Shown here: one piece after another, positions 416-35,654 of the stretch
Layout: the number at the start of each line of letters is the position of its first letter
Numbering within the stretch: the stretch's first letter is position 1
Origin: an uncultured Lachnospiraceae bacterium
GTDB lineage: Bacteria > Bacillota > Clostridia > Lachnospirales > Lachnospiraceae
NCBI GenBank assembly: GCA_946538525.1
Contig: CAMNGU010000010.1
Location: forward strand, 1-36,425
DNA: 36,425 nucleotides
Direction of reading: 5' to 3'
Program-made: the position numbers and the translations under genes
Notes under the pieces: generated by a model
The model's database searches: none
The model's input: the letters and a program-made list of their open reading frames with translations, nothing else
What the model was told of the DNA's origin: nothing

Positions 416-478
416 ATAACTAGTTTTTGTAACATTATAAAACTAATATTTTATGTTTTGAGAAGGAGGGATTACGCA

Positions 479-1591: not shown

Positions 1592-1622
1592 AATTTGCTT
1601 ACAATTTAGATATTAGTTAATA

Positions 1623-1657
1623 AGGACCTGCTGATGCTATGTCAGCAGGCCTTTTTT
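1623..1657 (+). terminator. Rho-independent terminator
   Basis: CCTGCTGA (1627-1634) pairs with TCAGCAGG (1642-1649) around a 7-nt loop. AGG/CCT extends the stem and a run of T follows. It ends the transcript of the secreted protein at 479-1591. Confidence 0.85.
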
Positions 1658-1699
1658 ATGTAATAAAAAATTGCGATATGCCTTTATGTAATAAATTGG

Positions 1700-1728
1700 G
1701 TGACAATTGAGAAATCATTTAATAAAAT
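1700..1728 (+). promoter_or_regulatory. Promoter for the aldo/keto reductase
   Basis: GTGACA (1700-1705) and TAAAAT (1723-1728) each match the sigma-70/SigA consensus at five of six positions and are exactly 17 bp apart. They lie about 45 bp before the ATG at 1771, which has a TAGGAGGT ribosome binding site. Confidence 0.6.
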
Positions 1729-1770
1729 GAAATTAGCAGTTTGTTTTGAGTTGTATAGGAGGTATTAGCT

Positions 1771-3003: not shown

Positions 3004-3169
3004 TTCTTATAAATTTCAATTTGTGGTAAAAATTTATAGGTATAAGCTAATATTGGAAAAGAAAATAAAATAAGAAAAAGCATAGAAAAAATAAGAAGAA
3101 AATTCAAAAGAAAAAATCAGAAGAAAAATTAAATAAATAATTCAATAGAATATAAAAAAATAAAGAATC

Positions 3170-3213
3170 AAAAAACGCTGGATTGAGGTGACCTCATTAA
3201 TCTAGCGTTTTTT
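3170..3213. terminator. Bidirectional terminator between convergent genes
   Basis: AAAAAACGCT (3170-3179) pairs with AGCGTTTTTT (3204-3213), and an inner GAGG/CCTC pairing strengthens the hairpin. The A-run and T-run let it work in both directions. It serves the reductase on the left and the minus-strand gene on the right, whose stop codon lies inside it. The stretch 3004-3169 is only A-rich spacer. Confidence 0.85.
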
Positions 3214-4885: not shown

Positions 4886-5072
4886 GTAAATTACCTCTGT
4901 TCCTAAAGTGATTCCTTTGCGCGTAATTAATAATCGTAGCATTAATAATAATAAATCCGTGTCAACATTTCAAGATTGTATGCAACACTTTCCGATTATC
5001 GACATACTTATATGGATGTTGATTTAGAATATGCATATTTGAAAAGGAATAATAATCATTTAGGAGGAATGT
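4886..5072. promoter_or_regulatory. Divergent intergenic region
   Basis: This 187-bp AT-rich spacer must hold promoters for the minus-strand hydrolase and for the secreted paralogs to the right. A perfect TTGACA on the minus strand lies at 4965-4960, but no good -10 sits at the right distance. For the plus strand only a TAGAAT near 5026 looks like a -10. Both are weak calls. Confidence 0.3.
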
Positions 5073-6866
5073 ATGAAGAAATTTTTGTTTAGGCATATGG
5101 CATCTGTTGCTTTAGCTTCTGCACTTGCTATAAGTGCAGTACCTGCCTGGGGAATTGGAACTGTTGAGGCTGCTGAAGGGGATATACTTACTATTTATGC
5201 CAGTGAGCTAAATAAAGTTGCTGCAAAAAATGAAGGGAATTATACTGGAGAAGATTATACTTTAGATAATAATAATTTAACAGTTAATGAAAAAAATGAA
5301 TATGGTGAAGTTGTATTGGAGTTAAATGAAGATTTACATCTTTATGATGTTAAGATTTACGGAACAACTACAATTAATGGCCCGAAAACATTATATTTGG
5401 ATAAGAATTTGAATGATAATGATATTGATATGGATATTTATGGAAAACTTACTGTAGATAAAGATGCCACCATTAGTCTTGGTGCAAAAGATTCTGATGT
5501 ACACATATATGATTATAATAATGTTAAGGGAAGCCTATATAGTAAGAAGGGTAACTTTATATATAATGATCATGGTAGTGTTCGTGTTAGTGGTAATGCC
5601 TATATCTATGATGGAAACTATAAAGCTACAGGTGCAGATTATATGATTATGGCGGACGGGGCTATATCCGTAAGTGGCGGTAATTTTACAACTGAAGGAA
5701 ATGAAAAAGTTTTATCTGTATTATTTGGAGATAGTGTTTCTATTAGTGGTGGTACATTTGATTGTGAATCAGATTATTTAGGCCTTTGTAGCGCTTATGA
5801 TATGAATATTTCAGGTGGAGATATAAATATCACATCGAAGGATACATTGGCTATATACTGCTATGATGGTAATTTGAATATATCAGGTGGAAATGTGGTT
5901 GCTAATTTAGATATAGAATATGTAAAACCTGATGGTGTAATAAAATGTAATAAGTTTAACTTTTCAGGTGGCTATCTTGAAACAAATGTTCCGGAACATG
6001 CGAAGAATATTTTTGTGGCAAATAAGAAGTTTGATATAGCAGAAAATTGCTATATAGAGCAACCTGAGGGAGCTAAGTTTGATGCTGATAGATACACTAT
6101 AGTTGGAAAGAGAAATATATTTCCTACAAAGGTTGTTATGAAGGAAAAACTTGATCTTTCAAAGGCTGAGATAAGTGGAATTGAAGATAAGGAATATACA
6201 GGTTCTGCTATTACACAGAATGCAGTAGTAACAATTGAAGGAACAACGCTTACTGAAGGTACTGATTATGTAATTGAGTATAGTGACAATACAGAAATTG
6301 GTACAGCAACTATGACATTCAGTCCTGTAGAAGGTAGTAATACTTTAGGAACAGCTAGTAAGACTTTCCAGATTACAAAGGTTGACGATGACAAGAAAGA
6401 TGATGTTAAGAAAGATGACGACAAGAAGGACGACAACAAGGACGACAAGAAGGACGACAACAAGGCTGAAAAGAAATACTCAAATGAATGGGTAGATGGA
6501 AAATGGTATGACGCTGACGGAAAGCAGACATACAAGGGTACTATGAGTTGGAAGAGCAATGATAAGGGATGGTGGATTGAGGACAGCGAAGGTTGGTATC
6601 CACAGTCTCAGTGGGTTAAGATAGATGGAAAGTGGTATTACTTCTGTGCAGACGGTTACATGGATTACAGCGAGTACCGTGATGGATGCTGGCTTGGATC
6701 AGATGGTGCCTGGGTAGAAGAGTACCACGGTGGAACATGGAAACAGAATTCAACAGGCTGGTGGTATGAGGATGCATCAGGATGGTATCCACAGAGTCAG
6801 TGGGTATGTATTGACGGAAGTTGCTACTACTTTGGAGCAGATGGATATTGGGATTCAAGTAAATAA
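5073..6866 (+). CDS. Secreted beta-helix-like protein with cell-wall-binding repeats (paralog 1)
   Basis: The 597-residue exported protein starts at an ATG after TAGGAGGAATGT and has a signal peptide (likely cleaved near AAEGD, residue 34). Residues about 35-340 contain recurring ISGG or VSGG turns (VSGGNFT, ISGGTFD, ISGGDINI, ISGGNVV). These suggest a parallel beta-helix like the carbohydrate-binding Cthe_2159-type proteins, which is an inference. Residues about 365-440 (GIEDKEYTGSAIT to ATMTF) form an Ig-like bacterial surface repeat. A Lys/Asp linker (about 445-470) leads to Trp/Tyr-rich cell-wall-binding repeats up to the end. It is followed 88 bp downstream by its paralog with no terminator between. 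It probably binds or displays polysaccharide at the cell surface. Confidence 0.75.
   Translation: MKKFLFRHMASVALASALAISAVPAWGIGTVEAAEGDILTIYASELNKVAAKNEGNYTGEDYTLDNNNLTVNEKNEYGEVVLELNEDLHLYDVKIYGTTTINGPKTLYLDKNLNDNDIDMDIYGKLTVDKDATISLGAKDSDVHIYDYNNVKGSLYSKKGNFIYNDHGSVRVSGNAYIYDGNYKATGADYMIMADGAISVSGGNFTTEGNEKVLSVLFGDSVSISGGTFDCESDYLGLCSAYDMNISGGDINITSKDTLAIYCYDGNLNISGGNVVANLDIEYVKPDGVIKCNKFNFSGGYLETNVPEHAKNIFVANKKFDIAENCYIEQPEGAKFDADRYTIVGKRNIFPTKVVMKEKLDLSKAEISGIEDKEYTGSAITQNAVVTIEGTTLTEGTDYVIEYSDNTEIGTATMTFSPVEGSNTLGTASKTFQITKVDDDKKDDVKKDDDKKDDNKDDKKDDNKAEKKYSNEWVDGKWYDADGKQTYKGTMSWKSNDKGWWIEDSEGWYPQSQWVKIDGKWYYFCADGYMDYSEYRDGCWLGSDGAWVEEYHGGTWKQNSTGWWYEDASGWYPQSQWVCIDGSCYYFGADGYWDSSK
6468..6794 (+). 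repeat. Near-identical 327-bp block shared with 8293-8619 (copy 1)
   Basis: This stretch, encoding the cell-wall-binding repeats of paralog 1, matches 8293-8619 at a constant offset of 1825 bp with a single mismatch (6511 A, 8336 G). The matching falls off from 6795, and the N-terminal halves of the two genes are clearly diverged. Confidence 0.85.
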
Positions 6867-6954
6867 AAAATTTTAATATAGTCAGCGGGATCATTTATGA
6901 AATATTTGGTAAAATATAAAGGTATTATTATAATTTTCTAAGGAGGTATTTAAT

Positions 6955-8733
6955 ATGAGGAAATTATTGTTCAGGCGCATGGCGTCAGTTGCTTTATCTT
7001 CTGCACTTGCTATAAGTGCTATGTCTGCCGGGGGTATTGGAAGTGTTGAGGCTGCAGAAGGTGATAAACTCACATTAAAAGCTAGTGAGCTAAACGCAGA
7101 AGCTGCTTCAGGTGGAGGCGCTTATATTGATGAAGATTATAAGTTAAAAGTTAGTAACGGTGGTTTTGAAGTAGAATTAATACTGGATGAAGATATACAT
7201 TTGGGTGATTGTAAAATTTACGGTAATACCACCATAAGTGGATCTAAAACATTATCTTTGGACCAAACTAGTAGTGGTACTGATATGAATATTTATGGTG
7301 ATTTAACTGTAAAGTCAGGAGCTAAAATTGAGCTTAATTCACACGATACTGATATAATTATAAAAAAATATGAAGGTGCAGGTGGAAACCTATATAGTTG
7401 GGGTGACTTTATATTTACAGAAGGGTATCAAATATGTGCGTATGGCGATGTATATATCTATGATGGAAACTTTGATGGAACAATGGTAGAAACTAGTTTT
7501 ATATACTCATTGAAGTCTTTATATGTTGAGGGTGGAAATTTTAAAACTCATAATACTGAATCTATCTTTTGTACAGATAAAGATATTTTTATTAGTGGTG
7601 GAACGATTGATTGTACTATAATTAAAGAAGGATTTAAATCTAATTTTGATGGAAAGATAAATATTTCTGGTGGAGATATTAATATTGAAGCGGATGATTA
7701 TCCGGTTATCTACACCTGTGGTGGTGATGTAAGTATATCAGGTGGGGATTTGGTTGTTTCTACTAGTTCAAGTCGTGCGGTAGATTGTAAAAATTTTGCT
7801 TTTTCAGGTGGCTATCTTGAAATGAATGTTCCGAATAACTATACAAATGTTTTGGCAACTTCTTTTGATATGGCAGAGAACTGTTATATTGATCAGCCTG
7901 AGGGTGGAGCGTTTGATTCAAATAAAAACACAATACTTGATAGTGAAGGTAAATATCCTGCAAAGGTTGTTTTGAAGGAGTGTTATGATCTTTCAAAGGT
8001 AAAATTCAGTGGGATTGAAGATAAGGATTATACTGGTTCAGCAATTACTCAGAACGCTGTTGTTTCATTCAATGGCCACACTCTTGAGGAAGGAACGGAT
8101 TATGTTGTTGAGTATAGTAACAACAAAGATGCTGGTACAGCGACTATGACATTCAAGCCGGCTGAAGGTAGCAAAAATATAGGAACCGTTAGCAAGACTT
8201 TCCAGATTACAAAGTCTGATAAAGACGACAAGAAGGACGACGACAAGAAGGATGACGACAAGAAGGACGATAAGAAAGACGACAAGAAAGACGAAAAGAA
8301 ATACTCAAATGAATGGGTAGATGGAAAATGGTATGGCGCTGACGGAAAGCAGACATACAAGGGTACTATGAGTTGGAAGAGCAATGATAAGGGATGGTGG
8401 ATTGAGGACAGCGAAGGTTGGTATCCACAGTCTCAGTGGGTTAAGATAGATGGAAAGTGGTATTACTTCTGTGCAGACGGTTACATGGATTACAGCGAGT
8501 ACCGTGATGGATGCTGGCTTGGATCAGATGGTGCCTGGGTAGAAGAGTACCACGGTGGAACATGGAAACAGAATTCAACAGGCTGGTGGTATGAGGATGC
8601 ATCAGGATGGTATCCACAGTCTCAGTGGGTATGGATTGATGGAAGCTGTTACTACTTTGGTAGTGATGGCTATATGCTTACAAATCAGTATGTAGATGGT
8701 TACTGGATTGGATCTGACGGAGTGTGTCAGTAA
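6955..8733 (+). CDS. Secreted beta-helix-like protein with cell-wall-binding repeats (paralog 2)
   Basis: This 592-residue exported protein is a tandem paralog of the gene at 5073. It starts at an ATG after CTAAGGAGG and has a closely similar signal peptide (MASVALSSALAISA). The order is the same: ISGG/VSGG-rich beta-helix-like region (about 35-335), Ig-like repeat (SGIEDKDYTGSAIT, about 360-420), a longer DDKKDD linker (about 422-448) and wall-binding repeats. It carries one extra terminal repeat (NQYVDGYWIGSDG) that paralog 1 lacks. The N-terminal domains share architecture but have drifted, while the wall-binding modules are nearly identical in DNA. It is probably co-transcribed with paralog 1 and ends before the hairpin at 8786-8829. 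The ligand is unknown. Confidence 0.75.
   Translation: MRKLLFRRMASVALSSALAISAMSAGGIGSVEAAEGDKLTLKASELNAEAASGGGAYIDEDYKLKVSNGGFEVELILDEDIHLGDCKIYGNTTISGSKTLSLDQTSSGTDMNIYGDLTVKSGAKIELNSHDTDIIIKKYEGAGGNLYSWGDFIFTEGYQICAYGDVYIYDGNFDGTMVETSFIYSLKSLYVEGGNFKTHNTESIFCTDKDIFISGGTIDCTIIKEGFKSNFDGKINISGGDINIEADDYPVIYTCGGDVSISGGDLVVSTSSSRAVDCKNFAFSGGYLEMNVPNNYTNVLATSFDMAENCYIDQPEGGAFDSNKNTILDSEGKYPAKVVLKECYDLSKVKFSGIEDKDYTGSAITQNAVVSFNGHTLEEGTDYVVEYSNNKDAGTATMTFKPAEGSKNIGTVSKTFQITKSDKDDKKDDDKKDDDKKDDKKDDKKDEKKYSNEWVDGKWYGADGKQTYKGTMSWKSNDKGWWIEDSEGWYPQSQWVKIDGKWYYFCADGYMDYSEYRDGCWLGSDGAWVEEYHGGTWKQNSTGWWYEDASGWYPQSQWVWIDGSCYYFGSDGYMLTNQYVDGYWIGSDGVCQ
8293..8619 (+). repeat. Near-identical 327-bp block shared with 6468-6794 (copy 2)
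   Basis: This is the partner of the block at 6468-6794 and encodes the same wall-binding repeats in paralog 2. The single mismatch against otherwise diverged genes points to a recent exchange. Confidence 0.85.
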
Positions 8734-10373: not shown

Positions 10374-10415
10374 TTTCCCCTTTGCTGGACGAAAATCTGG
10401 CAAAGGGGATTTTTG
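10374..10415 (+). terminator. Terminator-like hairpin, copy 2 of a repeated element
   Basis: CCCCTTTGC (10377-10385) pairs with GCAAAGGGG (10400-10408) around TGGACGAAAATCTG, followed by ATTTTTG. Stem and loop are nearly the same as at 8786-8829, with one base changed in the loop. It ends the MATE transcript. Confidence 0.7.
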
Positions 10416-10626: not shown

Positions 10627-12222
10627 ATGGCAGATAAACACACTTTAATCGATGATATCATCAAGAATCATACAGAACGAATACTAAATCTTCGTAAGTT
10701 CTATCCTTTTTTTGCGCTTTCTGAAGGAACCTTCAGTCAGTATAAGGATGGTGCTTTTCGTTTTCTTGATATGGGATATATAACACTTGCCATCCTTAGA
10801 TATTTTATTAACGAAAATAGTTTCAATGATAGTCCTGTTACATATAATGGATATGCTGAGTTCTGCAAGGAAATGTTAGCTCGAGACTTTGATGTGGTAT
10901 CAGGTGCTCCAGTAAAAATAAAAAGAGAGTCATCCGAAGAAGTTTCGGGAGATGTTGATAAAAATGCAGTATACACAAAAGATGAAATTGATGAACTAAT
11001 TAGATACATTTTCGATAAGCTCCGTAACTATGGAAGGGCATTTGAGTTTTCTTTCTATGACCCAGCTGAGAAAAAGTCCAAGACGGCGAGAGTCAGAGTT
11101 ATCGACAGTACAGTTAAGGAAGATGAGGTGGTTTACACTATCACCGAAGACGGAATAGAATTCTACCTCACCACTAAAGAGGTGAGAGACGAGAGCCGTA
11201 TCAACATGGATCAGCTGCTTCTTGAGAAACTGATCAAGTCCGAGAACTTCCGTGGAAGTATCGATGTTATCCAGAGAATCAACATAGAGGTTAAGGCGCT
11301 TGAGAAATACCGTCAGGAGGTTGTGGAGCTTCTGCTTTCCGATATTCACCAGGGAACCAAAGCGGTGGATGAATATATGGACCGTACATCTGTATGGTTT
11401 GCTGAGGAGAGAAAGTCTTTCGCCAGAAACAGAGAGCTGGTTGATAAGGCGGTGGCAAGACTTACATTTGACGGTGATACCAAGACTGCCCGAGATATAA
11501 CAACACTTCAGACTGTACTGAAGCAGACTATTGAGAATCATAGCGCTCTGATTGCGGCAACGGCAGAATTGTCCAGGTTCTCCGATGAAATGATCCGCAG
11601 GAGCAGAGTAAGAAGCCTAAGAAAGTCATTTGACTTTGAAAATATACTGAATAGATTTGTGGCAGAGGATAGACCGGACCTGATGAGCGAGCTTATCGCT
11701 CCGCTGATGCTTCCTCGCAGAAGAAAGTCCCTGGCCATTTCCACCATCGACAACATCGTTCTTCATAAGACTGCCGAGTCACTGAAGGGCGAGAAGAGAG
11801 AAGAGGTGAAGGCGGATCTTAACTTCAAGTATGAAGACGAGATACTGAATGAAAATGTGGGCCATAACTTCATGCTTCTCTTCAAGGAACTCCTTGGCAG
11901 ACTGAAGCGCTGGGATAAGGTCACCCTTCAGGAGTATGGAGCAATCCTAGAAGTTAAGTTTGGACAGGACATTTATAAGAATAGAGATTACTACGCATTT
12001 CTGACTCACCTGGCTGGAAAGGAAGAGTACAGCATGGAGAAAATCAGAGATGACGCTGAAACCTTCCTTGAGGAAATGGTGGCGGCACATTTATCCGAAG
12101 ATGATTACGACGAATATGAAGGTGCAGCATTCGGAATAGAATTTGGAAATGAGACTATTAAACTTCAGCTTGATGATGAAGAGATAGCTGAAATTACAGA
12201 TATGACATTCGTGAAAAAATGA
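10627..12222 (+). CDS. jetA: Kleisin-like subunit of a Wadjet/MksBEF-type condensin (JetA-like)
   Basis: The 531-residue cytoplasmic protein is mostly helical with charged segments. From its resemblance to the DUF5716/JetA family and its place before a KITE-like and an SMC-like gene, it should be the kleisin-like bridge of an SMC complex. Residues about 1-95 look like a winged-helix segment (ILRYFINENSF), followed by an acidic insert at about 98-120, a conserved-looking FEFSFYDP block near 140-150, and a long helical middle (about 195-390) that includes DEYMDRTSVWFAEERKSFA. The C-terminus (about 410-530) is acidic. The start has only a weak GGACAG site but fits the promoter distance. G+C looks higher than in the flanking surface genes. 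The exact family is from memory of architecture; the role rests strongly on the operon. Confidence 0.7.
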   Translation: MADKHTLIDDIIKNHTERILNLRKFYPFFALSEGTFSQYKDGAFRFLDMGYITLAILRYFINENSFNDSPVTYNGYAEFCKEMLARDFDVVSGAPVKIKRESSEEVSGDVDKNAVYTKDEIDELIRYIFDKLRNYGRAFEFSFYDPAEKKSKTARVRVIDSTVKEDEVVYTITEDGIEFYLTTKEVRDESRINMDQLLLEKLIKSENFRGSIDVIQRINIEVKALEKYRQEVVELLLSDIHQGTKAVDEYMDRTSVWFAEERKSFARNRELVDKAVARLTFDGDTKTARDITTLQTVLKQTIENHSALIAATAELSRFSDEMIRRSRVRSLRKSFDFENILNRFVAEDRPDLMSELIAPLMLPRRRKSLAISTIDNIVLHKTAESLKGEKREEVKADLNFKYEDEILNENVGHNFMLLFKELLGRLKRWDKVTLQEYGAILEVKFGQDIYKNRDYYAFLTHLAGKEEYSMEKIRDDAETFLEEMVAAHLSEDDYDEYEGAAFGIEFGNETIKLQLDDEEIAEITDMTFVKK

Positions 12223-12237
12223 TAAATGTAATTTAGT

Positions 12238-12316
12238 AAATCTAAGAAAAATCTAAAAAGAATTTTTATGAGAATCTAAGAAGAAATCTAAGAAAGAATC
12301 TATAAAGGAATCTATA
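12238..12316 (+). repeat. Degenerate AATCTA tandem repeats between jetA-like and jetB-like genes
   Basis: The 94-bp gap after the JetA-like stop is built mostly from six imperfect units around AATCTAAGAA or AATCTATAA, ending in AAAGGAATCTATA just before the next ATG. The last unit doubles as the ribosome binding site region. No terminator is present, so the genes are likely co-transcribed. Confidence 0.5.
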
Positions 12317-13162
12317 ATGGAAAGAAATCTTGAAAAAGCACTTGATATATACAGCGTACTTGCCACAGGCAGGAGCATTTCCGCAAAGGACAAGGAGACG
12401 GCAGAATTATATAACGCTTTCTATTCAGAGTCTGAGGTATATGATACAGTAACAGGACTGCTGAAGAGACTTAACCTTAAGCTGTATGAATATAATGAAT
12501 CGATTTTCGTAACAGCCGGTTCCGGAAATAAAATCTTTGGTTATACAAATGATGATCTGAAGAAGCAGCTGGGACTCAGACTGAATAAGGAACTGTACCT
12601 GGTTTACTTCATCGCCTACGAGGCACTGCTGCAGTTCTATAAGACTTCCGATTCCTACCAGATTAAGGACTACATCAGAACCGATGAGCTGATTGAATCA
12701 GTGAATAAAGAGCTGAACAGAATCAGCAGCGACGCATCAGTTTATTCAGATGAAGATCTGTCTGACGACTCATTTAAAGCAGTGGCTCTTCTCTGGGATG
12801 GACTTCCTCCAATGATAAATGAGGATAGAGACAGGACCAAGGCTTCAAGAGGTTCCAGAATGGGATTCGTTAAGCTGACAGCAAATCTTCTTTCTGCTGA
12901 GGGAATCTTCACAGTGATAGACGACAGACTTTATCCAACTGACAGATTCCATGCCATAGCAGAGAACTACTTTGAGGAGACAGGAAGCGAGATCTTCGCA
13001 AAGCTGGAGCAGGCTGCGGAGGAAAGAGACGATAAGGCTTCTGACAGAATAGTAGAGAAGTCATCAGATTTTGAAAAAACACAGGAAAAAGTATCTGAGA
13101 TAGATTCTTCTGAGGATATGGATTCTACAGAAGATATAAATGAGGATTCAGACAATGCCTAG
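12317..13162 (+). CDS. jetB: KITE-like subunit of a Wadjet/MksBEF-type condensin (JetB-like)
   Basis: The 281-residue protein sits between the kleisin-like and SMC-like genes, the position of MksE/JetB, and resembles the DUF6063 family as far as I can judge by eye. Residues about 1-215 look like tandem winged-helix domains (FYSESEVYDTVTGLLKRLNL; FVKLTANLLSAEGIFTVIDD; RLYPTDRFHAIAENYF). In related complexes such subunits bind the kleisin and DNA. The last about 50 residues are a strongly acidic Ser/Glu/Asp tail (SSEDMDSTEDINEDSD) that probably arose at the overlap with the next gene. Its stop overlaps the next start by 8 bp (ATGCCTAG), suggesting translational coupling. AAAGGA lies before the ATG. 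Confidence 0.7.
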   Translation: MERNLEKALDIYSVLATGRSISAKDKETAELYNAFYSESEVYDTVTGLLKRLNLKLYEYNESIFVTAGSGNKIFGYTNDDLKKQLGLRLNKELYLVYFIAYEALLQFYKTSDSYQIKDYIRTDELIESVNKELNRISSDASVYSDEDLSDDSFKAVALLWDGLPPMINEDRDRTKASRGSRMGFVKLTANLLSAEGIFTVIDDRLYPTDRFHAIAENYFEETGSEIFAKLEQAAEERDDKASDRIVEKSSDFEKTQEKVSEIDSSEDMDSTEDINEDSDNA

Positions 13163-16100
13163 TATCAATCGAATTAGAGTTAACAATGTAAAATATAATT
13201 TCGGAACTCAGGGGTACGACGATTTCTCCATGAGAATGTACGGACGCAACACTCTCTACGACCTGGCAAATGGTGGTGGTAAGAGTGTTCTTATGCTGCT
13301 TCTCATGCAGAATCTGATACCTAACTGTACCCTTGATGATAAGCAGCCTATCGAGAAGCTTTTCAGGGATCCAAGCAATACGGTTATCCATTCCCTCATT
13401 GAGTGGAAGCTGGATCCATGTGATGTGAAGGAAGGCATGCGTTACATGACCACAGGTTTTGCTGCAAAGAAGGCAGCCACAGTGGACGGACAGGCTGAGG
13501 ACAAGTCCGGCGACGGTGATGCAGGGCAAAATGGAACTGCTCAGATAGAGTACTTCAACTATGTTATCTTCTACAGAGATTACAACAAAAATGATATCAT
13601 CAACCTTCCGCTTGTGAAGGACAACGAACGCATTTCCTATAAGGCGCTTCGTAATTATCTTCACGACCTGGCGAGAAATGATAAGAACATGATCGTTCAG
13701 ATATTTGACCGTAAGGGCGAGTACCAGAAGTTCATTGCTGACTATGGTCTCTACGAAAGTCACTGGGAGATAATTCGTGGTATCAATAAGACAGAGGGAC
13801 ATGTAAGAACCTACTTCGAGACCAACTATAAGACCACCCGTCGTGTCATCGAGGATCTGCTCATCGAGGAGATAATCGAGAAGGCATATCAGGCTAAGAC
13901 AGACAGGGAGTCAGATAAGACTGAAAGCACAGTATCACTTCTCATGACAATTCAGGAGGAGCTGAAGAGTCTTGCTGAGAAGAAGAAGGATATTCAGAGA
14001 TACGATCATGAGCAGGAGCTGGTTCAGCTTCTCATAGACAGAATCCAGTCCTTCATGGAGCTGTATAAAGAGCAGGAAGCAACTGCTGAGCAGTGCGGTC
14101 GTGTTCTTGTTACACTTCAGAATGAGAAGGATTCCAGAGAGGAAAGAACCAACGAGCTTCGTGACAGCATAAGTGAACTGGAGAACAAGCTGAAGCTGTC
14201 CAGAGAGCTGGTTGAGATATATAAGATTTACAAGGATATTGAAGAGCTGGAGAAGAGGAACAGCCTTATCTCCAGTAAGCAGGCAGATCTTACCAGGATT
14301 TCTTCCGACATGGATATGCAGGATAAGGCGTACCGCGAGAGACTGGCGGTCAGCGACTATCTTGAGTTGAAGAAGGCAAAGAGTGAGCTGGATGCCCTGA
14401 AGAAGGATAAGAGCGAAATCTCCAAGGATGCTCAGAACATCTACACAGTTGTTGCCAATATCCGTGACAGAATGGATAAGAGATTTGCTGCTATAGATGA
14501 GAGAAAGGCTCCAATAGAGGAGTTAGTAAACCAGATAAATGAGTCTCTTGCCAAGCAGAATAAAATTAAGGCTGAGGCAGAGACAGAGATGGCGGTCATC
14601 AGTAGCCGTCAGGATTATATCGATAGAGATATCGAAGAATGTAACAGGGGTCTGAATGACCTGAAGGGTGACATAGATTATGCCCTGATGATGGATCCTG
14701 GTCAGTCTATTAAAACTGAAACAGAGAAATATAAGGGACTGGAAAGAAGTCTTGAAACTCTGGAGGATCAGCTGACAGAACTTTCAGAAGCAGGTTCTGC
14801 TCTTCAGGAGAAGCTGAATCAGCAGAGAAATGAAAGCAGCGAGATAAAGGGAAAACTTTCTACTCTTGAGGAAAGAGTTGAGGAGTTCAGAAGTATAAAG
14901 GATAAGTTCCGTTCTATCTGCAGCATTTACGCGGATGATGCAAATGCTCAGGCAGAGGTGGTGGAGCAGAAGCTTCAGGACAGATCCAGTGCGCTGGTTA
15001 TCAAGACCTACGAGCTGAAGAAGAATATGGAAAGTCTGGAAAAGCGTGAGAAGGATATTCGTTCCGGCAGACTTATAGAGCCTACAGAGGCAGTGGAAAA
15101 GGTTATAGATTACATTTTCACAAGACACGGTATGCAGGCTATGTATGGAATGGACTATATCTCAGCTCTTTCGGATGCAAAGAAGGAAGAGATGCTTGCA
15201 AAGGTACCAGGACTTCCTTATGGAATAATTGTTGAAAATATGCCAAAGCTCATGGAGGATGCAGGGCTTAAGGAACTGGATATAGATTCAGAAGTGGTTC
15301 TCTATGGAAGGGAACTTCTTGAGGAAGCAGGAATTCTTCTTGGAGACGGAGTCGAAGTAGTAAGAAGAGAGAAGGATTTCTTTATTGAATCTCGTTTCCA
15401 GGATCAGAAGCTTAGACTTCTTGGGGCTGACATGGATGATCTTCAGGAGGATATCAGAAACAGCGAGAATATGCTGGAGACTCTTCAGGATGATATGGAA
15501 TTCGTCAGAACCTATAGGGAGCGTGGATATGCAACTGCAGAGGCTGATTACGAAGAAGCAAGGAAGACTCTTGCAGTAGTTGAAGAAGAAATTAAAAAGC
15601 TTGTTGAAGAGCTGAATAGTAATGATAGAAAACAGAATCAGACTAAGCTTCAGATTGAGGATACACATCATCAGATGAAGGTGATGGATGCTGAACTTAT
15701 CAGCCTTAGCAAGGCAGTTTCTTATCAGGATAAGATAAGTGAATTGTCCCGAGTAAAGGATGGTCTAAGGAGAGACAGAACAAGACTTGAGAAAGAATTA
15801 GAAGGAGCGGTTCAGAAGATCAGGACACTGGAAATGAAAGCTCTTGAGCAGAAGTCTATCAGTGAAGGTCTCAGTAACGAAAGGCTGGAGCTGGAGCATA
15901 AATGGGACAATAAATATGCAGTTTACTATATTGAAGGAACCCCATTTCCACCACTTGATATGGATGAGACCGAACTGGAAAAGGCATTTGAAGCGGCTCT
16001 TGGTTCCTCTGGTGAAAGCAGAATGTCTCTTGAAAAAGAAAGACTTCTGGAAGAAACCCTTAAGGGTACAATCGAAAGAATTACTAAAAATATAAACAAA

Positions 16101-17600
16101 CTCGGGGTTGACATAACTCTACTGGAACAAGTGGATAATTCGTCTCACATTTCGCCTGTTAGTGATGAAGTTCTTGAAGCAATGAAGAAGGAACTGGACA
16201 GACTGCAGAGTGAGAAAAATGCACTGGAGAAAGAACTTTCCGGTGTGGAAACAGATAAGGCTCGTCTTGAAGGAAGTATCGAATATGCCAAGAACAGGCT
16301 GAGCATGGAGTATGGAGAGGACGCGCTTCAGAAGCTGGGTGAGATAAGAAATGAGGATGGCTCATTTGACACCAATAAGGCACTGGAGGAGCAGAAGATT
16401 CTTGCTGGTCAGGCTGAAGAACAGCTGTACAGTCAGCGAAAAGCTCTTGATAAGTTGGAGAAAACAGCCAGAGGAAATGATGATCTTATCAAGCTGGCAA
16501 CTAGAATTGTTGATTCCAATAAGATTTCTTTAGCTGGTCTCGAACCGCTAGATGCACCGGAAGCGTTGAGTAACATTTCCACAGATTTCGATAATCTTAT
16601 ACTTAAGTATGACAAGATATCCAAGTCCATTGACAGAGCTAAGGCGGATATGCTGAAGGTTAAGATGAGTGTTTATGATACTCTGACCACCATGAATGTT
16701 CTGGAGCTGGCAATGTCAATCCGTGAGGATGTGGTAATACCGGATAGCAGAAAGGATGCAGAGCAGCTGCTTAAGCGTCTGGAGGATGTTGTAGGAATTA
16801 TCCTTCTTGAGAGAGACCGCATAGAGAAGAGTCTCACCAGTATGCAGCAGCTGAAGGACAGCTTCGTGGATCAGTGCGTGGAGCGTTGTCTGGATGTTCG
16901 TTCCGAGCTGGATAAGCTTACAAAGCTTTCGGAGATTACCATGGGAGATGAGAAGGTTCAGATGATCCGTCTCACTATTCCTTATGTGAAGGATGAATTC
17001 ATCAAGGACCGAATGGCAGAATATATTGACAACATCGTGGCGGAAGTAGATAAGAAGGAAAATGAGTCTGATAGGCAGAAGTTCCTTGGTCAGAACCTTT
17101 CTATGAAAAAGCTTTTCTCTGTCATAGTAACTGATATGTCGAAGATCAGGCTGATGCTGTATAAGCGTGAGAGGATTAGAGAACAGAGTAGATATCTTAG
17201 ATATGAGGAAGCGGTAGGAAGTACCGGACAGTCACAGGGTATCTACATTCAGTTCCTGATATCCATCATCAACTATATTGCGGGTATGTATGCAGTTGCA
17301 GACAGTACCAGCAGAGCCAAGACGCTATTTATAGATAACCCATTTGGAGCGGCTAAGGATATTTATATCTGGGAGCCAATCTTTAGTCTGCTGGCTGAAA
17401 ATAACTGTCAGCTTATTGTTCCTGCCCGTGGTGCTACACCTGAAATCACAGGTAAGTTCGATATCAATTATGTACTGGGACAGCAGATGACTGGAAATAG
17501 AACTACTACAGTTGTTGTTAACTACACCAGCAAGACAAAGGGCGAGGAACTGGAGTACAAGGCACTCAATTACGAGCAGCAGACCTTTGATTTTATATAG
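13155..17600 (+). CDS. jetC: SMC-like coiled-coil ATPase of a Wadjet/MksBEF-type condensin (JetC-like)
   Basis: The 1481-residue protein has SMC architecture. The N-terminal head carries a P-loop (LANGGGKSVLM, K43). Long coiled coils (about 230-620 and 760-1330) flank a globular hinge-like stretch (about 645-750, starting near RHGMQAMYG). The C-terminal head has an ABC-signature-like STGQSQ (1356-1361) and a Walker B-like TLFIDNPFG with D1394. The residue after that Asp is N1395 where canonical SMC proteins have the catalytic Glu. I prefer the ATG at 13155 (MPSINRIRV) over 13140 because GAGGAT lies at good distance and JetC-like proteins begin at such a motif. In Wadjet complexes this ATPase extrudes plasmid DNA loops. 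The gene overlaps the previous one by 8 bp. Confidence 0.8.
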   Translation: MPSINRIRVNNVKYNFGTQGYDDFSMRMYGRNTLYDLANGGGKSVLMLLLMQNLIPNCTLDDKQPIEKLFRDPSNTVIHSLIEWKLDPCDVKEGMRYMTTGFAAKKAATVDGQAEDKSGDGDAGQNGTAQIEYFNYVIFYRDYNKNDIINLPLVKDNERISYKALRNYLHDLARNDKNMIVQIFDRKGEYQKFIADYGLYESHWEIIRGINKTEGHVRTYFETNYKTTRRVIEDLLIEEIIEKAYQAKTDRESDKTESTVSLLMTIQEELKSLAEKKKDIQRYDHEQELVQLLIDRIQSFMELYKEQEATAEQCGRVLVTLQNEKDSREERTNELRDSISELENKLKLSRELVEIYKIYKDIEELEKRNSLISSKQADLTRISSDMDMQDKAYRERLAVSDYLELKKAKSELDALKKDKSEISKDAQNIYTVVANIRDRMDKRFAAIDERKAPIEELVNQINESLAKQNKIKAEAETEMAVISSRQDYIDRDIEECNRGLNDLKGDIDYALMMDPGQSIKTETEKYKGLERSLETLEDQLTELSEAGSALQEKLNQQRNESSEIKGKLSTLEERVEEFRSIKDKFRSICSIYADDANAQAEVVEQKLQDRSSALVIKTYELKKNMESLEKREKDIRSGRLIEPTEAVEKVIDYIFTRHGMQAMYGMDYISALSDAKKEEMLAKVPGLPYGIIVENMPKLMEDAGLKELDIDSEVVLYGRELLEEAGILLGDGVEVVRREKDFFIESRFQDQKLRLLGADMDDLQEDIRNSENMLETLQDDMEFVRTYRERGYATAEADYEEARKTLAVVEEEIKKLVEELNSNDRKQNQTKLQIEDTHHQMKVMDAELISLSKAVSYQDKISELSRVKDGLRRDRTRLEKELEGAVQKIRTLEMKALEQKSISEGLSNERLELEHKWDNKYAVYYIEGTPFPPLDMDETELEKAFEAALGSSGESRMSLEKERLLEETLKGTIERITKNINKLGVDITLLEQVDNSSHISPVSDEVLEAMKKELDRLQSEKNALEKELSGVETDKARLEGSIEYAKNRLSMEYGEDALQKLGEIRNEDGSFDTNKALEEQKILAGQAEEQLYSQRKALDKLEKTARGNDDLIKLATRIVDSNKISLAGLEPLDAPEALSNISTDFDNLILKYDKISKSIDRAKADMLKVKMSVYDTLTTMNVLELAMSIREDVVIPDSRKDAEQLLKRLEDVVGIILLERDRIEKSLTSMQQLKDSFVDQCVERCLDVRSELDKLTKLSEITMGDEKVQMIRLTIPYVKDEFIKDRMAEYIDNIVAEVDKKENESDRQKFLGQNLSMKKLFSVIVTDMSKIRLMLYKRERIREQSRYLRYEEAVGSTGQSQGIYIQFLISIINYIAGMYAVADSTSRAKTLFIDNPFGAAKDIYIWEPIFSLLAENNCQLIVPARGATPEITGKFDINYVLGQQMTGNRTTTVVVNYTSKTKGEELEYKALNYEQQTFDFI

Positions 17601-17648
17601 ATTCAAAACTATAAATACATATAAAACTATCAAGGATATAAATCGATA

Positions 17649-18506
17649 ATGTATATTGTAGACAGTAAAAACATATTAACACCGCAGAATGGTCTAAACA
17701 TCTACCGTGGCAGGACCGAGAACAGTATACTTCTTACTGAGGTGACGGGGGCTGATCCTCTGGATATAGGTGTAAAGAAGGATGCGCCGGATCAGTTGAA
17801 TCAGGTGCTGAAGACTAGAAGGAGTAAGGGAATAATCATCATAGGCAATCTGGGTGATCCTTATAACAGTCATGAAGAAGAGTATCTTCTCACAAGAAAA
17901 TGTCTTCAGGTTATTGAAAATAATGATTATGGTGTGGTAATATCCACAAAGCAGTCTCTTATAGAACGAGATATGGATGTTCTGAAGGGGATAGCCAGAA
18001 AGACAAAATGCGCCGTGGAGCTTACATTTCCAACCTTTGATAATGGCATGCTGAAGAAGCTGGAAGGTGAAGAGGTTATCTCTGTTGAGGAAAGATTTAG
18101 ATTACTGGATTTGTTCCGGGAAAATGGTATCGATATAATCGCAAAAGTATATCCTATAATTCCATTTGTAAATGATGAAGAGACGCTGGACATAGTGCAG
18201 CGCCTATCTGAGTATGATATACTTGGAATTGATTTCATGGAATACCGTCTTGCTATAAAGAAGTCGGTTAGAGAGTTCTTCTACACAGAATTCAAGAATA
18301 GATTTCCAGAGAGCTACGAAGCCTTCAGCGCAGAATATGAAGAGACCGGTGAGCTGCTTCCAAGGAATTATAAGGAAAATCTGAAGACTATTACAGAAAT
18401 GTGTGAGCAGAAGAATCTTCTTTGTGGAAAGAAAAAGCTTACCGACTGGAAGCGTAAGTACGAGAATAAAACTACCGGTGACCAGATGTCGATATTTGAT
18501 TTTTAA
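17649..18506 (+). CDS. Degenerate SplB-like radical SAM-fold protein lacking the cluster cysteines
   Basis: The 285-residue protein follows the spore photoproduct lyase-like (COG1533/SplB) pattern almost throughout: NIYRG at 17-21, GDPYNSHEEEYLLTR (about 74-88), ISTKQSLIERDMDVL (about 98-112), ERFRLLDLFRENGI and YPIIPFVNDEE (about 147-177), and KKSVREFFYTEFKNRFPE near 205-222. The CxxxCxxC that should follow YRG is replaced at identical spacing by R22, S26 and L29 (GRTENSILLTE), so it cannot bind a normal [4Fe-4S] cluster. The last seven residues, QMSIFDF, match a bacterial sliding-clamp-binding peptide. It lies 48 bp after the SMC-like gene, with AAGGA before the ATG and no terminator between, taking the place where Wadjet operons have JetD. 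The function is unknown; I infer a non-catalytic or repurposed scaffold. Confidence 0.7.
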   Translation: MYIVDSKNILTPQNGLNIYRGRTENSILLTEVTGADPLDIGVKKDAPDQLNQVLKTRRSKGIIIIGNLGDPYNSHEEEYLLTRKCLQVIENNDYGVVISTKQSLIERDMDVLKGIARKTKCAVELTFPTFDNGMLKKLEGEEVISVEERFRLLDLFRENGIDIIAKVYPIIPFVNDEETLDIVQRLSEYDILGIDFMEYRLAIKKSVREFFYTEFKNRFPESYEAFSAEYEETGELLPRNYKENLKTITEMCEQKNLLCGKKKLTDWKRKYENKTTGDQMSIFDF

Positions 18507-18740
18507 TATTATGACATAAGTGTCAAAAGTCAAAATGCGTTCCTGCTTGCAGGAAAAGCATGTTGACCTTATGACACGCTGAAACATGAGGAAATAGCAT
18601 TTTTCTTAGAAAAATAGCGGTTTCCGAATGTTTCTAGGATTGCGAGAATTTCGTAAGAAATGGAGCAATCCGTATGTCATATGGTGTCAAAAGGTACTTT
18701 TGACACCCACATCATATTTTTAATTAGTGAAGGATAAACT
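18507..18740 (+). promoter_or_regulatory. Hairpin-dense intergenic region
   Basis: Four inverted repeats fill this 234-bp gap. At 18515-18573 is a long interrupted hairpin (TTCCTGC/GCAGGAA at its tip, ATGC/GCAT, GTCAA/TTGAC and CATAAG/CTTATG below). At 18599-18615 is ATTTTTC/GAAAAAT. At 18637-18671 is GGATTGC/GCAATCC with inner ATTTC/GAAAT. At 18683-18707 is a perfect 11-bp repeat, GGTGTCAAAAG/CTTTTGACACC, with loop GTA. The 9-mer TGTCAAAAG also occurs alone at 18521-18529. The last hairpin is followed by a T-rich stretch and could terminate the condensin transcript; the repeats could equally be protein-binding sites. Confidence 0.6.
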
Positions 18741-20861
18741 ATGTCATATGAATTATACGAAAAAGCCAAGAAGCTAGGTACAAAAGCATATAAGGCAAAT
18801 ATGTCTGAGGGCCGCTATCCATTTCTACCGGTTCTGGATGATATCATCAGTAAGGAAGATATCACCGGAGAGGTTAGTCTTGGGATAGTGGACATCCCTC
18901 TATCCAGAGTTGTTGGAACGAGTACGGCGGCGAGAACCCAGTCCTTTGCTTCTAACTTTATGCCTCTTATGGAACGAAATACTGAGTTTGGTTCCAAATG
19001 GTCCATGCTCAGTGATGCCCACATGAATGAGGGTATCAGGGATCCTATAAAGGTATATGAATATATGAATTACTACTATGTAGTTGAAGGCAATAAGAGA
19101 GTCAGTGTCCTCAAGTTTTTTGAGGCTGACTCTATTCCTGCATTTGTAACCCGAAAAGTTCCTAAGCTTACAGATGATGAAGAGATTCAGATTTACTATG
19201 AATTCATGGACTTCAACAAGAAGACAGGAATCAACTCTATCTGGTTCACTCAACTGGGAAGTTACAAGCGTCTTATGGATCAGGTTGCCATGGCTGAGAA
19301 ACATGGAGGAGTGTTAGATGATACTCCTCAGAGCTCCCAGCAGGCTTCAGCATCTGATTCTGCTGATGGAACAGGAATTTTGATCAGAACTGAGGTTGGC
19401 CGTATTTGGTCCGATGATACTATTCTGGAGCTTAAGGCGGCATATAAGAGATTTGAAAAAGGCTACAAGCAGAAGGGTGGAAAGAAGCTGAGTAACATTT
19501 CCACAGGAGACGCATTTCTCACCTTTGTTGAACTTAAAGGTTTTGATAATGTATGCGAAATGAGTATCGAGGAATTTGAGATTGGCATCACTTCCATGTG
19601 GCAGGAATTCCTTGTTATGAATGAAAGCTATGAAGTTGAGGTTTCACTGGATCCGCCTGAAGAGAGGAAGACGGTGTTGTCCTCTATACTTTCTCCAAAT
19701 TATAGTGCAGCAAAACCGCTTAAAGCAGCATTTATCTATGATGCAGATACTGCGGATTCTGACTGGGTATATGCTCATGAGCTGGGAAGAAACTACATCA
19801 AAGAGGTATTCGGCGATAAGCTGGTGACATTAAAGATAGCCAATGTTCATACGGAAGATGAGATTATTTCGGCTATAGAAGATCTGGTTGAAAATCATAA
19901 GGCGGAAGTTATATTTACCACTAATGCTCAGGCTATCAGCGCCAGTTTAAAATGCGCTATCAAGTATCCTGATGTTAAGATACTTAATTGTTCTATAAAT
20001 ACACTGCATAGATATATTAGAACATATGATGCGAGACTGTATGAAGCAAAGTTCTTGGCGGGAATGATAGCTGGAGCGGTTACAGAGACCAATAAGATTG
20101 GATATATGGCAACATTTCCTATCTATGGAATTACAGCGAATATTAATGCCTTTGCTCTGGGAGCGAAGATGGTAAATCCAAATGTTAAAGTTTATGTTCA
20201 GTGGACATCAGTTAAAGGCGCCGAGGCCAAGTCGGATCTTTATAAATCATTTTATCAGGAAGGCATAGATATTGTTTCCGATCAGGATATGATCACTCCT
20301 AGAAAGGCATCTAGAAAGTATGGTATGTACAAACTTTCTGAAAATGGTCCGGAGAACATGACCATGACTGCCTATAACTGGGGTACCATGTATGAAAGGA
20401 TTATCAATATCATCATGCAGGGTGGATGGAACAGTGCTGATGCGGACAGCGAGAGTAAACCTATCAATTACTGGTGGGGAATGTCTGCAGGCGTTGTAGA
20501 TATTATTATGTCAGATAAGATTCCGGTAGGAACCAGACGACTGGTGAATACCATTAAGAAACTTATTATAGAAGATGAATTCTCTCCATTTATGGGAGAG
20601 ATAAGAAATCAGGCTGGCACTATTATAAGTGAAGAAGGCGAAGATCTTGAGGTTGAGGAGATAATCACCATGAATTATCTGGTTGATAATGTGGTGGGAG
20701 AGATTCCAGAGATAGATGACCTGAAGGAAGAGGCCAGAGCACTGGTTGAGATAAAAGGTGTTCAGCAAGGCAGTACTGATAATAATGCGGATAATTCAAG
20801 TACTGAAAAAAATGCGGACAATAAGTTAGGTAATACAGATAATACAGGTGATTCAGAGTAA
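18741..20861 (+). CDS. ParB-like domain fused to a BMP/PnrA-type ligand-binding domain
   Basis: The 706-residue protein has no signal peptide or lipobox, so it is predicted to be cytoplasmic. Residues about 48-140 resemble the N-terminal ParB/Srx-like fold: GIRDPIKVYEY then YYVVEGNKRVSVLKFFEAD, with the GNKRVS box at 117-122. A helical linker follows (about 145-310). Residues about 328-640 follow the basic membrane protein (BMP, PnrA/Med-like) pattern of nucleoside-binding proteins: AAFIYDADTADSDW, AIKYPDVKILN, EAKFLAGMIAGAVTETNKIGYM and ANINAFALGAKMVNP. The tail is Asn/Asp/Ser-rich. GAAGGA precedes the ATG. BMP proteins are normally extracytoplasmic ABC-transporter binding proteins; here the domain is tied to a putative DNA- or nucleotide-binding module. 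I infer a ligand-responsive regulator, possibly tied to the neighbouring condensin. Confidence 0.75.
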   Translation: MSYELYEKAKKLGTKAYKANMSEGRYPFLPVLDDIISKEDITGEVSLGIVDIPLSRVVGTSTAARTQSFASNFMPLMERNTEFGSKWSMLSDAHMNEGIRDPIKVYEYMNYYYVVEGNKRVSVLKFFEADSIPAFVTRKVPKLTDDEEIQIYYEFMDFNKKTGINSIWFTQLGSYKRLMDQVAMAEKHGGVLDDTPQSSQQASASDSADGTGILIRTEVGRIWSDDTILELKAAYKRFEKGYKQKGGKKLSNISTGDAFLTFVELKGFDNVCEMSIEEFEIGITSMWQEFLVMNESYEVEVSLDPPEERKTVLSSILSPNYSAAKPLKAAFIYDADTADSDWVYAHELGRNYIKEVFGDKLVTLKIANVHTEDEIISAIEDLVENHKAEVIFTTNAQAISASLKCAIKYPDVKILNCSINTLHRYIRTYDARLYEAKFLAGMIAGAVTETNKIGYMATFPIYGITANINAFALGAKMVNPNVKVYVQWTSVKGAEAKSDLYKSFYQEGIDIVSDQDMITPRKASRKYGMYKLSENGPENMTMTAYNWGTMYERIINIIMQGGWNSADADSESKPINYWWGMSAGVVDIIMSDKIPVGTRRLVNTIKKLIIEDEFSPFMGEIRNQAGTIISEEGEDLEVEEIITMNYLVDNVVGEIPEIDDLKEEARALVEIKGVQQGSTDNNADNSSTEKNADNKLGNTDNTGDSE

Positions 20862-20947
20862 AGGTCTGATGAATCATCTTGAAATATTTATCTATAAAAA
20901 TCTTTAAAAGATTTAAGCTAATCAAAACAAAAGGGGTTTCGGAGGAG

Positions 20948-21544
20948 ATGAAGATTCTTGCTCTGGCAGATGTAGAGTCTAAATATTTGTGGGACTTTTT
21001 TGAAAAAACTAAATTAGATGGCATAGACCTGATTGTTTCTGCGGGAGACCTGGCGCCTCAGTATCTGGAATTCCTGGCAACCTTTGCTAAGGTTCCGGTG
21101 TTATATGTACATGGCAATCATGATGGCTGTTATAAGGACACACCACCAAATGGCTGTATATGTGTAGATGAGGATATATATGAATACCAGGGACTTCGTA
21201 TCATGGGACTTGGTGGAAGTATGTGTTACAACTATGGAAGTCATCAGTATAACGAAAAGCAGATGAGGAAGAGGTATTATAAGCTCCTTCCGAAGATATG
21301 GAGGAAGAAGGGAATAGATATACTTCTTACCCATTCTCCTGCCAAAGATTTTCATGATGGGAAGGACATGCCGCACATGGGCTTTGACTGCTTCAATACT
21401 ATATTAAAAAAGTATGAGCCAAAGTTATTTATTCATGGGCATGTACATATGAACTATGGCAGAGAATTTAAGCGTGAAGAAATGTATGGAAATACTCGGG
21501 TTGTAAATGCATTTGAAAGATATATTATTGAAATAGATGTTTAA
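20948..21544 (+). CDS. Calcineurin-like metallophosphoesterase
   Basis: The 198-residue protein has the order of motifs of small metallophosphoesterases (YfcE/MJ0936-like): a degenerate first box, MKILALADVES (the usual D-x-H becomes D-V-E); VSAGDL for GDxx; YVHGNHDG for GNHD; LTHSPAKD; and IHGHVHMNYG for GHxH. I chose the ATG at 20948 because the family starts exactly at this beta strand; a TTG at 20879 would add 23 residues. GGAGGAG lies very close (about 2 nt) to the ATG, and AAGGGG at 11 nt is an alternative site. It lies 86 bp after the ParB-BMP gene, probably in the same transcript. The substrate is unknown; such enzymes cut phosphodiesters. Confidence 0.8.
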   Translation: MKILALADVESKYLWDFFEKTKLDGIDLIVSAGDLAPQYLEFLATFAKVPVLYVHGNHDGCYKDTPPNGCICVDEDIYEYQGLRIMGLGGSMCYNYGSHQYNEKQMRKRYYKLLPKIWRKKGIDILLTHSPAKDFHDGKDMPHMGFDCFNTILKKYEPKLFIHGHVHMNYGREFKREEMYGNTRVVNAFERYIIEIDV

Positions 21545-33708: not shown

Positions 33709-33743
33709 CAGACAGTAATATCCGGTTTATCAAAGGGGGATAT

Positions 33744-35088: not shown

Positions 35089-35333
35089 TGCTGTGACATT
35101 GATAGCGGGGAATCGGAGATTGCTGTTGCAGGAACAGGTAACTTCGTGGAGCGAATGTCAAGATCTAGAATCTGGCGACAAGTCACTGTACCAATACCAT
35201 CTAACAAGGGTTAGAGATGACGGATGTAAATCCGATTTTTTTTAGAAATAAATCGCGATACACCCGGGATAGTTGTACAGTCACCACTTGCTCAGCATTA
35301 AGAAATGCTAAAAATAAGGAGGCGACTTTTTTT
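35089..35333 (+). ncRNA. Structured 5' leader of the S10 operon, family not recognised
   Basis: About 245 nt of transcribed leader precede rpsJ. TGACATT (35094-35100) pairs with AATGTCA (35154-35160) and would close a branched domain. CATCT-AAC and GTT-AG-AGATG form a hairpin at 35198-35219. CGGAT/ATCCG plus a T-run follows at 35221-35243. A GGAGG ribosome binding site ends the leader. The arrangement suggests autogenous control (L4-type or another ribosomal protein), but I do not recognise a named leader family. Confidence 0.5.
35221..35243 (+). terminator. Possible attenuator in the S10 leader
   Basis: CGGAT-GTAA-ATCCG is followed by A and eight T. The stem is short (5 bp), so it could be a conditional terminator. 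Read-through is required for rpsJ expression from the upstream promoter. Confidence 0.4.
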
Positions 35334-35654
35334 ATGAAGAAAAATGTAGCGAGAATAGTTTTAAAGGCTTATGACCATGAACTCCTTGATGATACAGCAA
35401 GACAGATCGTTGAAGCTGTAAAGAGCACAGGAGTTGAAGCAGTTAAGGGACCTATCCCAATGCCAACAAAGGTTGAGAAGATTACAATTCTTAGAGCTGT
35501 TCATAAATATAAGGACAGTAGAGAGCAGTTCGAGCAGAGAACTCACAAGAGAATTATCGACATCATCACACCTGGTAAGGGAACAATGAAGACTCTTAGC
35601 GACTTAGACATCTCAGCTGGAGTATTCATGGAAATACAGACAAAGATCAGCTAA
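35334..35654 (+). CDS. rpsJ: 30S ribosomal protein S10
   Basis: The 106-residue protein matches bacterial S10 throughout: VRIVLKAYDHELLD-like start (here ARIVLKAYDHELLD), GPIPMPTKVEKITILRAVHKYKDSREQFEQRTHKRIIDI and the ending LDISAGVFMEIQ. It binds 16S rRNA in the 30S head and also acts as NusE in antitermination. The start at ATG 35334 follows AAGGAGG with an 11-nt spacing; an in-frame upstream ATG would add 39 residues from the leader that no S10 has. It is the first gene of the S10 operon, but is separated from rplC by an unusual 295-bp gap. Confidence 0.98.
   Translation: MKKNVARIVLKAYDHELLDDTARQIVEAVKSTGVEAVKGPIPMPTKVEKITILRAVHKYKDSREQFEQRTHKRIIDIITPGKGTMKTLSDLDISAGVFMEIQTKIS

Follow-up and report, generated by a model that had tools for sequence, protein, structure and literature searches.

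JetABC without JetD in Lachnospiraceae: a type III Wadjet relative that probably lost its nuclease and is joined by a pseudo-radical-SAM gene

What becomes of a Wadjet when its nuclease is missing is the question raised by a stretch of 36,425 nucleotides from an uncultured Lachnospiraceae bacterium (contig CAMNGU010000010.1 of assembly GCA_946538525.1), hereafter the window, in which the type III genes jetA, jetB and jetC stand in their expected order and JetD was not found. Wadjet relatives of JetABC cut plasmids, and a first-pass annotation of this DNA had wavered between a Wadjet variant with another effector and a housekeeping condensin, favouring the latter. All gene positions that it claimed were confirmed, and its observation stands while its interpretation is partly supported. 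The overall pattern would fit a defence machine that has taken on a different task. The best explanation, to which we attach moderate confidence, is a complex of type III Wadjet origin whose nuclease was lost in a single event, which would act on the chromosome in the manner of MksBEF, and which has a captured pseudo-enzyme as operon mate. The genes on which this rests are the following.

10627..12222, + strand: jetA, type III kleisin-like subunit, 531 aa (PADLOC JetA3 PDLC00560, E=2e-174; JetA trees)
12317..13162, + strand: jetB, type III KITE-like subunit, 281 aa (PADLOC JetB3 PDLC00571, 1.4e-85; Pfam PF19539, DUF6063, 1.3e-40)
13140..17600, + strand: jetC, type III SMC-like ATPase, 1486 aa (PADLOC JetC3 PDLC00581, E=0)
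17649..18506, + strand: pseudo-radical-SAM gene, SplB/PA0069-like, 285 aa (Pfam PF04055, 4.7e-7; NCBIfam; motif, synteny and tree)

Pfam barely recognises JetA and JetC and knows JetB as DUF6063; the PADLOC type III models are the best match for all three. The JetC profile match begins at residue 6, and the protein carries ANGGGKS, STGQSQG and FIDNPFG, which we take to be the Walker A, signature and Walker B motifs. A sequence search against solved structures gave no match for JetC at E<=0.01 and only chance-level ones for JetA (E about 0.5).

The lack of JetD that had been claimed for the window was borne out: a Pfam scan of its 22 main genes gave no match to JetD or TOPRIM families, and the genome from which the window comes, 80% complete and in 187 contigs, gave no match at E<=10 to JetD_C (PF09983, a profile that does detect a JetD3). 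Because the Clostridia type III Wadjets examined have JetD upstream of JetA, its absence is to be judged upstream of jetA. Comparison covered a family sample of 299 Lachnospiraceae-like genomes, a class sample of 341 genomes, and 61 genomes of the window's genus, 31 of them near-complete (handles beginning with G denote genomes, those with L loci). The JetA profile matches 41 of the 299 family genomes, 38 strongly (the window included) and three weakly, the weak ones (G157, G179, G233) being type III Wadjets in which JetD3 precedes JetA. Around 37 of the 38 strong loci, and around L002, the stretches examined contain no JetD; those of L047 and L052 start within 200 bp of jetA and several stop near it. 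Together, the family survey (0 of 38) and the genus survey (0 of 40) found no JetD at 77 distinct clade loci, one being shared, and the JetD-less JetABC first noticed in the window is thus a clade-wide condition. Outside the clade, JetD lies upstream of JetA in 22 of 23 type III loci, or in 20 of 21 by a fairer count that omits L139 and L140, both fetched through their JetD. JetA matches below E=1e-100 are restricted to the family among the 341 class genomes sampled, and the weaker type III loci of the class have JetD directly upstream in 17 of 18 cases. The exception, L127, is an independent type III JetABC without JetD and represents a separate loss in the JetA tree; its genome, G620, also has a JetD-bearing locus (L124), where jetC appears interrupted or displaced and its expected place holds no JetC-like frame.

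In a JetA tree, the 38 JetD-less rows (the window, L002 and 36 family loci; L066 was omitted, its jetA being split) form one clade, with an SH-like approximate likelihood-ratio (SH-aLRT) support of 100, against 22 JetD-bearing rows. The split was retained at 99 without four long branches and at 99 with JetC heads, the trees being rooted on a chosen row. JetD occurs in the other Wadjet types and can therefore be regarded as ancestral, its loss being the derived state; it was also seen in the type I and type II loci typed here. As part of the explanation as a whole, it is fairly probable that a single loss of JetD took place at the root of this clade within the Lachnospiraceae-like family.

JetD encoded elsewhere in the same genomes bears on this reading. 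JetD_C passes the cut-off in 14 of the 41 JetA-bearing family genomes, 12 of which belong to the 38 clade genomes; among these 12, it lies in type I/II-like operons of its own in eight, in type III JetDABC in two and in fragments in two (G014, G115). Two of the remaining 26 clade genomes (G067, G227) have sub-threshold matches in type II-like operons, and the JetD_C search found no JetD in 24 of the 38. Strong JetD3 matches are confined to G151, G157, G174, G179 and G233. G174 holds JetDABC (L140) and the JetD-less JetABC in one genome, and G151 has its JetD3 in a second type III locus (L139), whose jetC is cut by the end of the stretch. Within the window's genus, JetD_C is over cut-off in 10 of 61 genomes and absent at E<=0.001 from 19 of 26 JetA-bearing near-complete genomes, including the one-contig G633. 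Twenty-six non-type-III JetD stretches were examined in two sets (16 and 10). In 19 of them a frame of about 1075-1412 residues adjoins JetD, along with two frames of JetA and JetB size (separated by a reverse-strand frame in L228), and six proteins from such stretches were typed as type I or II, consistent with the operon reading; one of the 19 (G645) lacks a JetA of this clade. Fragments, some of which lie at the end of a contig, account for five stretches (G014, G115, G025, G639, G641), and two (G180, G106; E 0.14, 0.31) are not JetD-like, so that the set of 10 divides into three complete-looking operons, these five and these two. The JetD-less complex has no evident nuclease of its own, with help in trans possible in about a third of the clade genomes.

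The ATPase motifs are conserved throughout: GGGKS (Walker A) in 37 of 37 clade JetCs, and STGQSQG (signature) and DNPFG (Walker B) in all 36 that reach that far. A dead ATPase, as the DN in Walker B might imply, was considered and rejected, since the JetD-bearing type III JetCs of L071 and L072 share it; close to the Wadjet of L071 there is an IetA-like gene (L071:1646-3478). In the JetCs of the clade, 75 positions show at least 97% conservation of a residue that JetD-bearing JetCs rarely have, and a scan for loss of JetD-contact residues found only two JetA, one JetB and three JetC columns that are conserved in JetD-bearing rows and lost in the clade. The ratio of nonsynonymous to synonymous change (dN/dS) is below 0.25 in the pairs compared, except for a JetB value of 0.28 (L165/L166, on a dS of 0.02), a few pairs being saturated. 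JetA is present in 50 of 61 genus genomes and in 26 of the 31 near-complete ones. Canonical SMC co-exists with the complex in 38 of 38 clade genomes (37 over cut-off, one split over contigs), and a tblastn search of JetC against 72,556 plasmid records returned one weak partial match with 15% covered. The housekeeping-type condensin favoured by the annotation is the more probable identity, compared with a plasmid cutter, for a chromosomal JetABC that lacks JetD across its clade.

Starting 48 bp past jetC, the fourth gene, for which we keep the annotation's assumed label SplB, matches Pfam Radical_SAM (PF04055) at 4.7e-7, over the cut-off and with homology over the barrel, and NCBIfam NF033668 (PA0069-type) at 1.6e-27 and 96.5 bits, below the cut-off of 360; searched by sequence against solved structures, it gave one insignificant match (E=0.059). 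In the genus, a radical-SAM gene follows jetC in every locus long enough to show it, 38 in all (the window, L063 and 36 of the 40 fetched, the other four stopping short of that point), and three loci of other genera have it there too (L047, L048, L059). Spacing ranges from overlap to 248 bp; in 33 of 41 rows the two genes overlap or stand less than 60 bp apart. The cluster motif CX3CX2C is missing in 38 of 38 distinct genus copies, some of which retain one of the three cysteines, and intact in the three linked copies of other genera and in 20 of 20 sampled unlinked copies. In a tree computed without the motif columns from 52 of the 62 available rows, the 34 linked rows form one clade (100) and so do the 31 motif-less rows (87), which probably reflects one relocation and then one motif loss; 24 other positions are conserved in both motif-bearing and motif-less kinds. 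Values of dN/dS are low (0.018, 0.042, 0.058, 0.069, 0.109 and 0.111 in six pairs with dS <1.2, and up to 0.20 in other finite-dS pairs, 16 of 17 pairs being finite), which argues for a kept pseudo-enzyme under purifying selection and not for a dying gene. A SplB-like gene without cluster cysteines that travels with jetABC, as described from the window, recurs across the genus loci that reach past jetC. Across the family, 126 of 299 genomes have a match to the radical-SAM profile (E<=1e-20, with the weakest possibly belonging to other radical-SAM families), and in 121 of the 126 the gene lies away from JetC, so that it is no general partner of JetABC. The notion that it is a mere stray family gene was revised in view of its consistent position after jetC in the genus survey. 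For an SMC operon to gain a radical-SAM gene at its side, with subsequent loss of the cluster motif, would be unusual, and was not mentioned at the level of the literature listings searched.

Around these four genes, the window holds further elements that bear on the limits of the jet unit.

10376..10409, + strand: terminator-like hairpin of 14 pairs between a MatE transporter gene and jetA (pattern match only)
18683..18707, + strand: 11-bp perfect inverted repeat, GGTGTCAAAAG-GTA-CTTTTGACACC (read from the sequence)
18741..20861, + strand: ParB-like/BMP fusion, 706 aa (Pfam Bmp, 7.8e-24; distribution)
20948..21544, + strand: metallophosphoesterase, calcineurin-type (Pfam PF00149, 2.5e-13)
35217..35654: ribosomal S10

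The hairpin is a likely start boundary of the jet unit. At its other end, the 234-bp gap between the pseudo-radical-SAM gene and the ParB-BMP gene contains the inverted repeat, a possible boundary to the ParB-BMP module. The latter protein apparently bears a Bmp ligand domain, with its best Bmp/PnrA stretch at residues 328-567 (7.8e-24) and a resemblance to 6pi5 (an atrazine periplasmic binding protein) and 3s99. Its N-terminus has no Pfam match at E<=0.001 and only weak ones to Noc (E 0.078) and PD-Lambda-5_A (E 0.0056), and the label ParB is plausible, though unproven. Among the other genes scanned in the window are those for choline-binding-repeat proteins, an aldo/keto reductase, citrate synthase, an amidase, a methyltransferase, cyclases and ribosomal S10. 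Several proteins with cell-wall choline/glucan-binding repeats are encoded at positions 371-8733, one of which weakly matches a beta-lactamase family, and positions 31067-34775 hold consecutively a CHASE2-cyclase, a metallo-beta-lactamase-fold protein and a GAF-GGDEF diguanylate cyclase.

A housekeeping role had also been argued from the nearness of the S10 operon, and this argument cannot be generalised, as the locus lies elsewhere in other genera and stands behind recR in 13 of 37 family loci. In these 13, jetABC follows dnaX-ybaB-recR, with a TPR-AAA gene downstream in 12; among 20 JetA-less genomes, dnaX-ybaB-recR lies within about 6.5 kb upstream of the TPR-AAA gene in five, adjoining it in three, a pattern compatible with jetABC having been gained or lost at a core site. 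The recR product (L033:2268-2861 and 12 other loci) has a TOPRIM domain and its gene stands upstream of jetA, where type III JetD stands, which is probably a coincidence. The TPR-AAA gene is the commonest neighbour and lies downstream in 27 of the 37 loci of the family (L033:9796-12882 and 26 others). Its product has a TPR-like part at the N-terminus and a degenerate AAA-like one at the C-terminus, joined by an acidic linker that is long and varies greatly in length; one copy scanned received no Pfam name. It was considered as a replacement for JetD and rejected, its N-terminal part occurring in 283 of 299 family genomes irrespective of JetA. Over 27 loci, distances of JetC (r=0.69) and of JetA (r=0.53) correlate with those of this near-universal gene, with 0 of 2000 permutations as high in either case.

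On the preferred explanation, JetABC would be a complex of the condensin type with a type III Wadjet as its ancestor, JetD having been lost once at the base of the clade. Without JetD it would no longer cut circular DNA but would retain DNA loading and loop extrusion, and could act on the chromosome, besides SMC, like MksBEF of Pseudomonas aeruginosa. In the sub-clade of the window, a SplB/PA0069-type radical-SAM gene would have relocated a single time to a place at the 3' end of jetC, and in the window's genus would then have lost its cluster motif while being retained under purifying selection; as an operon mate, the pseudo-enzyme may bind JetABC, which we infer, and may serve it as a DNA-binding or regulatory accessory. 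A bolder version, in which a plasmid-cutting immune SMC was domesticated into a nuclease-free condensin within a single bacterial family, independently of MksBEF, and the dead SplB-like enzyme became, in one genus, a dedicated fourth subunit replacing JetD as DNA-reading or regulatory partner, is put forward tentatively.

The complex might instead still be immune, recognising plasmid or phage DNA and either recruiting a nuclease in trans, possibly the JetD of a co-resident Wadjet, or blocking DNA by loop extrusion without cutting it. Its patchiness (JetA in 41 of 299 family genomes), the apparent swapping of jetABC alleles in two pairs, a JetC dN/dS above that of ParB-BMP in most pairs, and the JetDs of other types in some clade genomes would all suit such a role. 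Yet 24 of 38 clade genomes yielded no JetD, the JetDs that do occur in non-type-III stretches mostly have a JetC-size frame beside them (19 of 26), no nuclease gene consistently follows jetC, where the commonest neighbour is the TPR-AAA gene with its N-terminal part in 283 of 299 genomes, and presence in 50 of 61 genus genomes is, in our judgement, high for a defence system; we consider continued immunity rather unlikely. That the complex is a decaying, functionless remnant left after nuclease loss recalls the one clade jetA split in two frames (L066), but is scarcely credible given the low dN/dS in nearly all genes and pairs, the conserved ATPase motifs and the persistence of one clade through some 37 genera.

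The annotation's own proposal was a distinct six-gene system in which ParB-BMP would be the ligand sensor and the phosphoesterase would work together with JetABC and the pseudo-radical-SAM protein. It draws on the position of ParB-BMP, downstream of the radical-SAM gene and on the same strand in all 34 genus loci that extend far enough. Across the family, ParB-BMP matches 165 of 299 genomes at E<=1e-10 (the weaker ones possibly plain Bmp proteins) and about 113 below 1e-40 by hand count, of which only 16 are among the 41 JetA genomes and about 97 lack JetA. The phosphoesterase adjoins ParB-BMP in 29 of 29 loci examined (L074-L102), a malic-enzyme gene intervenes between the radical-SAM gene and ParB-BMP in 32 of the 34 genus loci, joined in some cases by genes for MoxR, DUF58 and transglutaminase proteins, and the window, which lacks the malic-enzyme gene, has the palindrome there. 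ParB-BMP and the phosphoesterase thus appear to be an independent conserved two-gene module outside the jet system, and their partnership with JetABC is highly improbable. On the co-occurrence test that the annotation had set, the six-gene grouping breaks down family-wide, and that of JetABC with the pseudo-radical-SAM gene holds within the genus.

Several observations weigh against a chromosomal condensin with a captured partner. The complex is dispensable and patchy, JetA being unmatched in 258 of 299 family genomes and, within the genus, in 11 of 61, including 5 of the 31 near-complete ones, and 12 of the 38 clade genomes have an over-cut-off JetD that could work in trans. Alleles of jetABC have apparently been swapped between close relatives, as often in defence genes: dS in L176/L180 is 0.63 for JetA and 0.65 for JetC against 0.11 for the radical-SAM gene and 0.08 for ParB-BMP, and in L165/L166 it is 0.03 for JetA against 0.55 for JetC, pointing to replacement of parts of the operon. 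In both pairs the radical-SAM gene goes with the downstream block and not with jetA. Its rate covariation with JetC (partial r 0.39) does not exceed that of ParB-BMP (0.45), so that it is not singled out; one sister genus (L050) lacks it after jetC; and the genus survey covered 42 of the 50 JetA-bearing genomes. Furthermore, the part of the review behind the analogy that was drawn on treats MksBEF, not type III (PMC10586767).

Set beside known systems, the pseudo-radical-SAM protein resembles the SplB/PA0069/Rv2578c family in its Radical_SAM match over the cut-off and its PA0069-type match below it, and departs from it in that the genus copies lack CX3CX2C (38 of 38) and the gene lies at the 3' end of jetC. 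JetABC itself is like a type III Wadjet, all three subunits matching PADLOC type III families and JetA falling among the type III tree rows, but JetD is absent from all 77 distinct clade loci and the head residues of the clade differ, with STGQ in the signature against mostly SGGE in JetD-bearing rows. PADLOC names such as 'Wadjet subunit' may therefore mislead for the 38 of 299 family genomes that carry this clade. Since both states occur in one family and even in one genome (G174, and likewise G151), a switch from defence to housekeeping could be tested side by side.

With MksBEF, as in Pseudomonas aeruginosa, the clade shares SMC, kleisin and KITE genes without a nuclease and the presence of canonical SMC in the same genomes; it differs in its type III derivation and its pseudo-radical-SAM operon mate. 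MksB belongs to the JetC1 lineage, which places MksBEF on the type I side, and the window's JetC lies outside that lineage (JetC3 E=0 against JetC1 2.5e-4 in PADLOC), so that its nuclease loss would be a separate event. A literature search, with bioRxiv and most subscription journals outside its scope, named no JetD-less type III clade in its listings. According to the review behind the analogy, most Wadjet work to date concerns type I, and MksBEF is thought to have arisen through loss of JetD (PMC10586767). The clade described here looks like a second, separate case of nuclease loss, in the type III branch.

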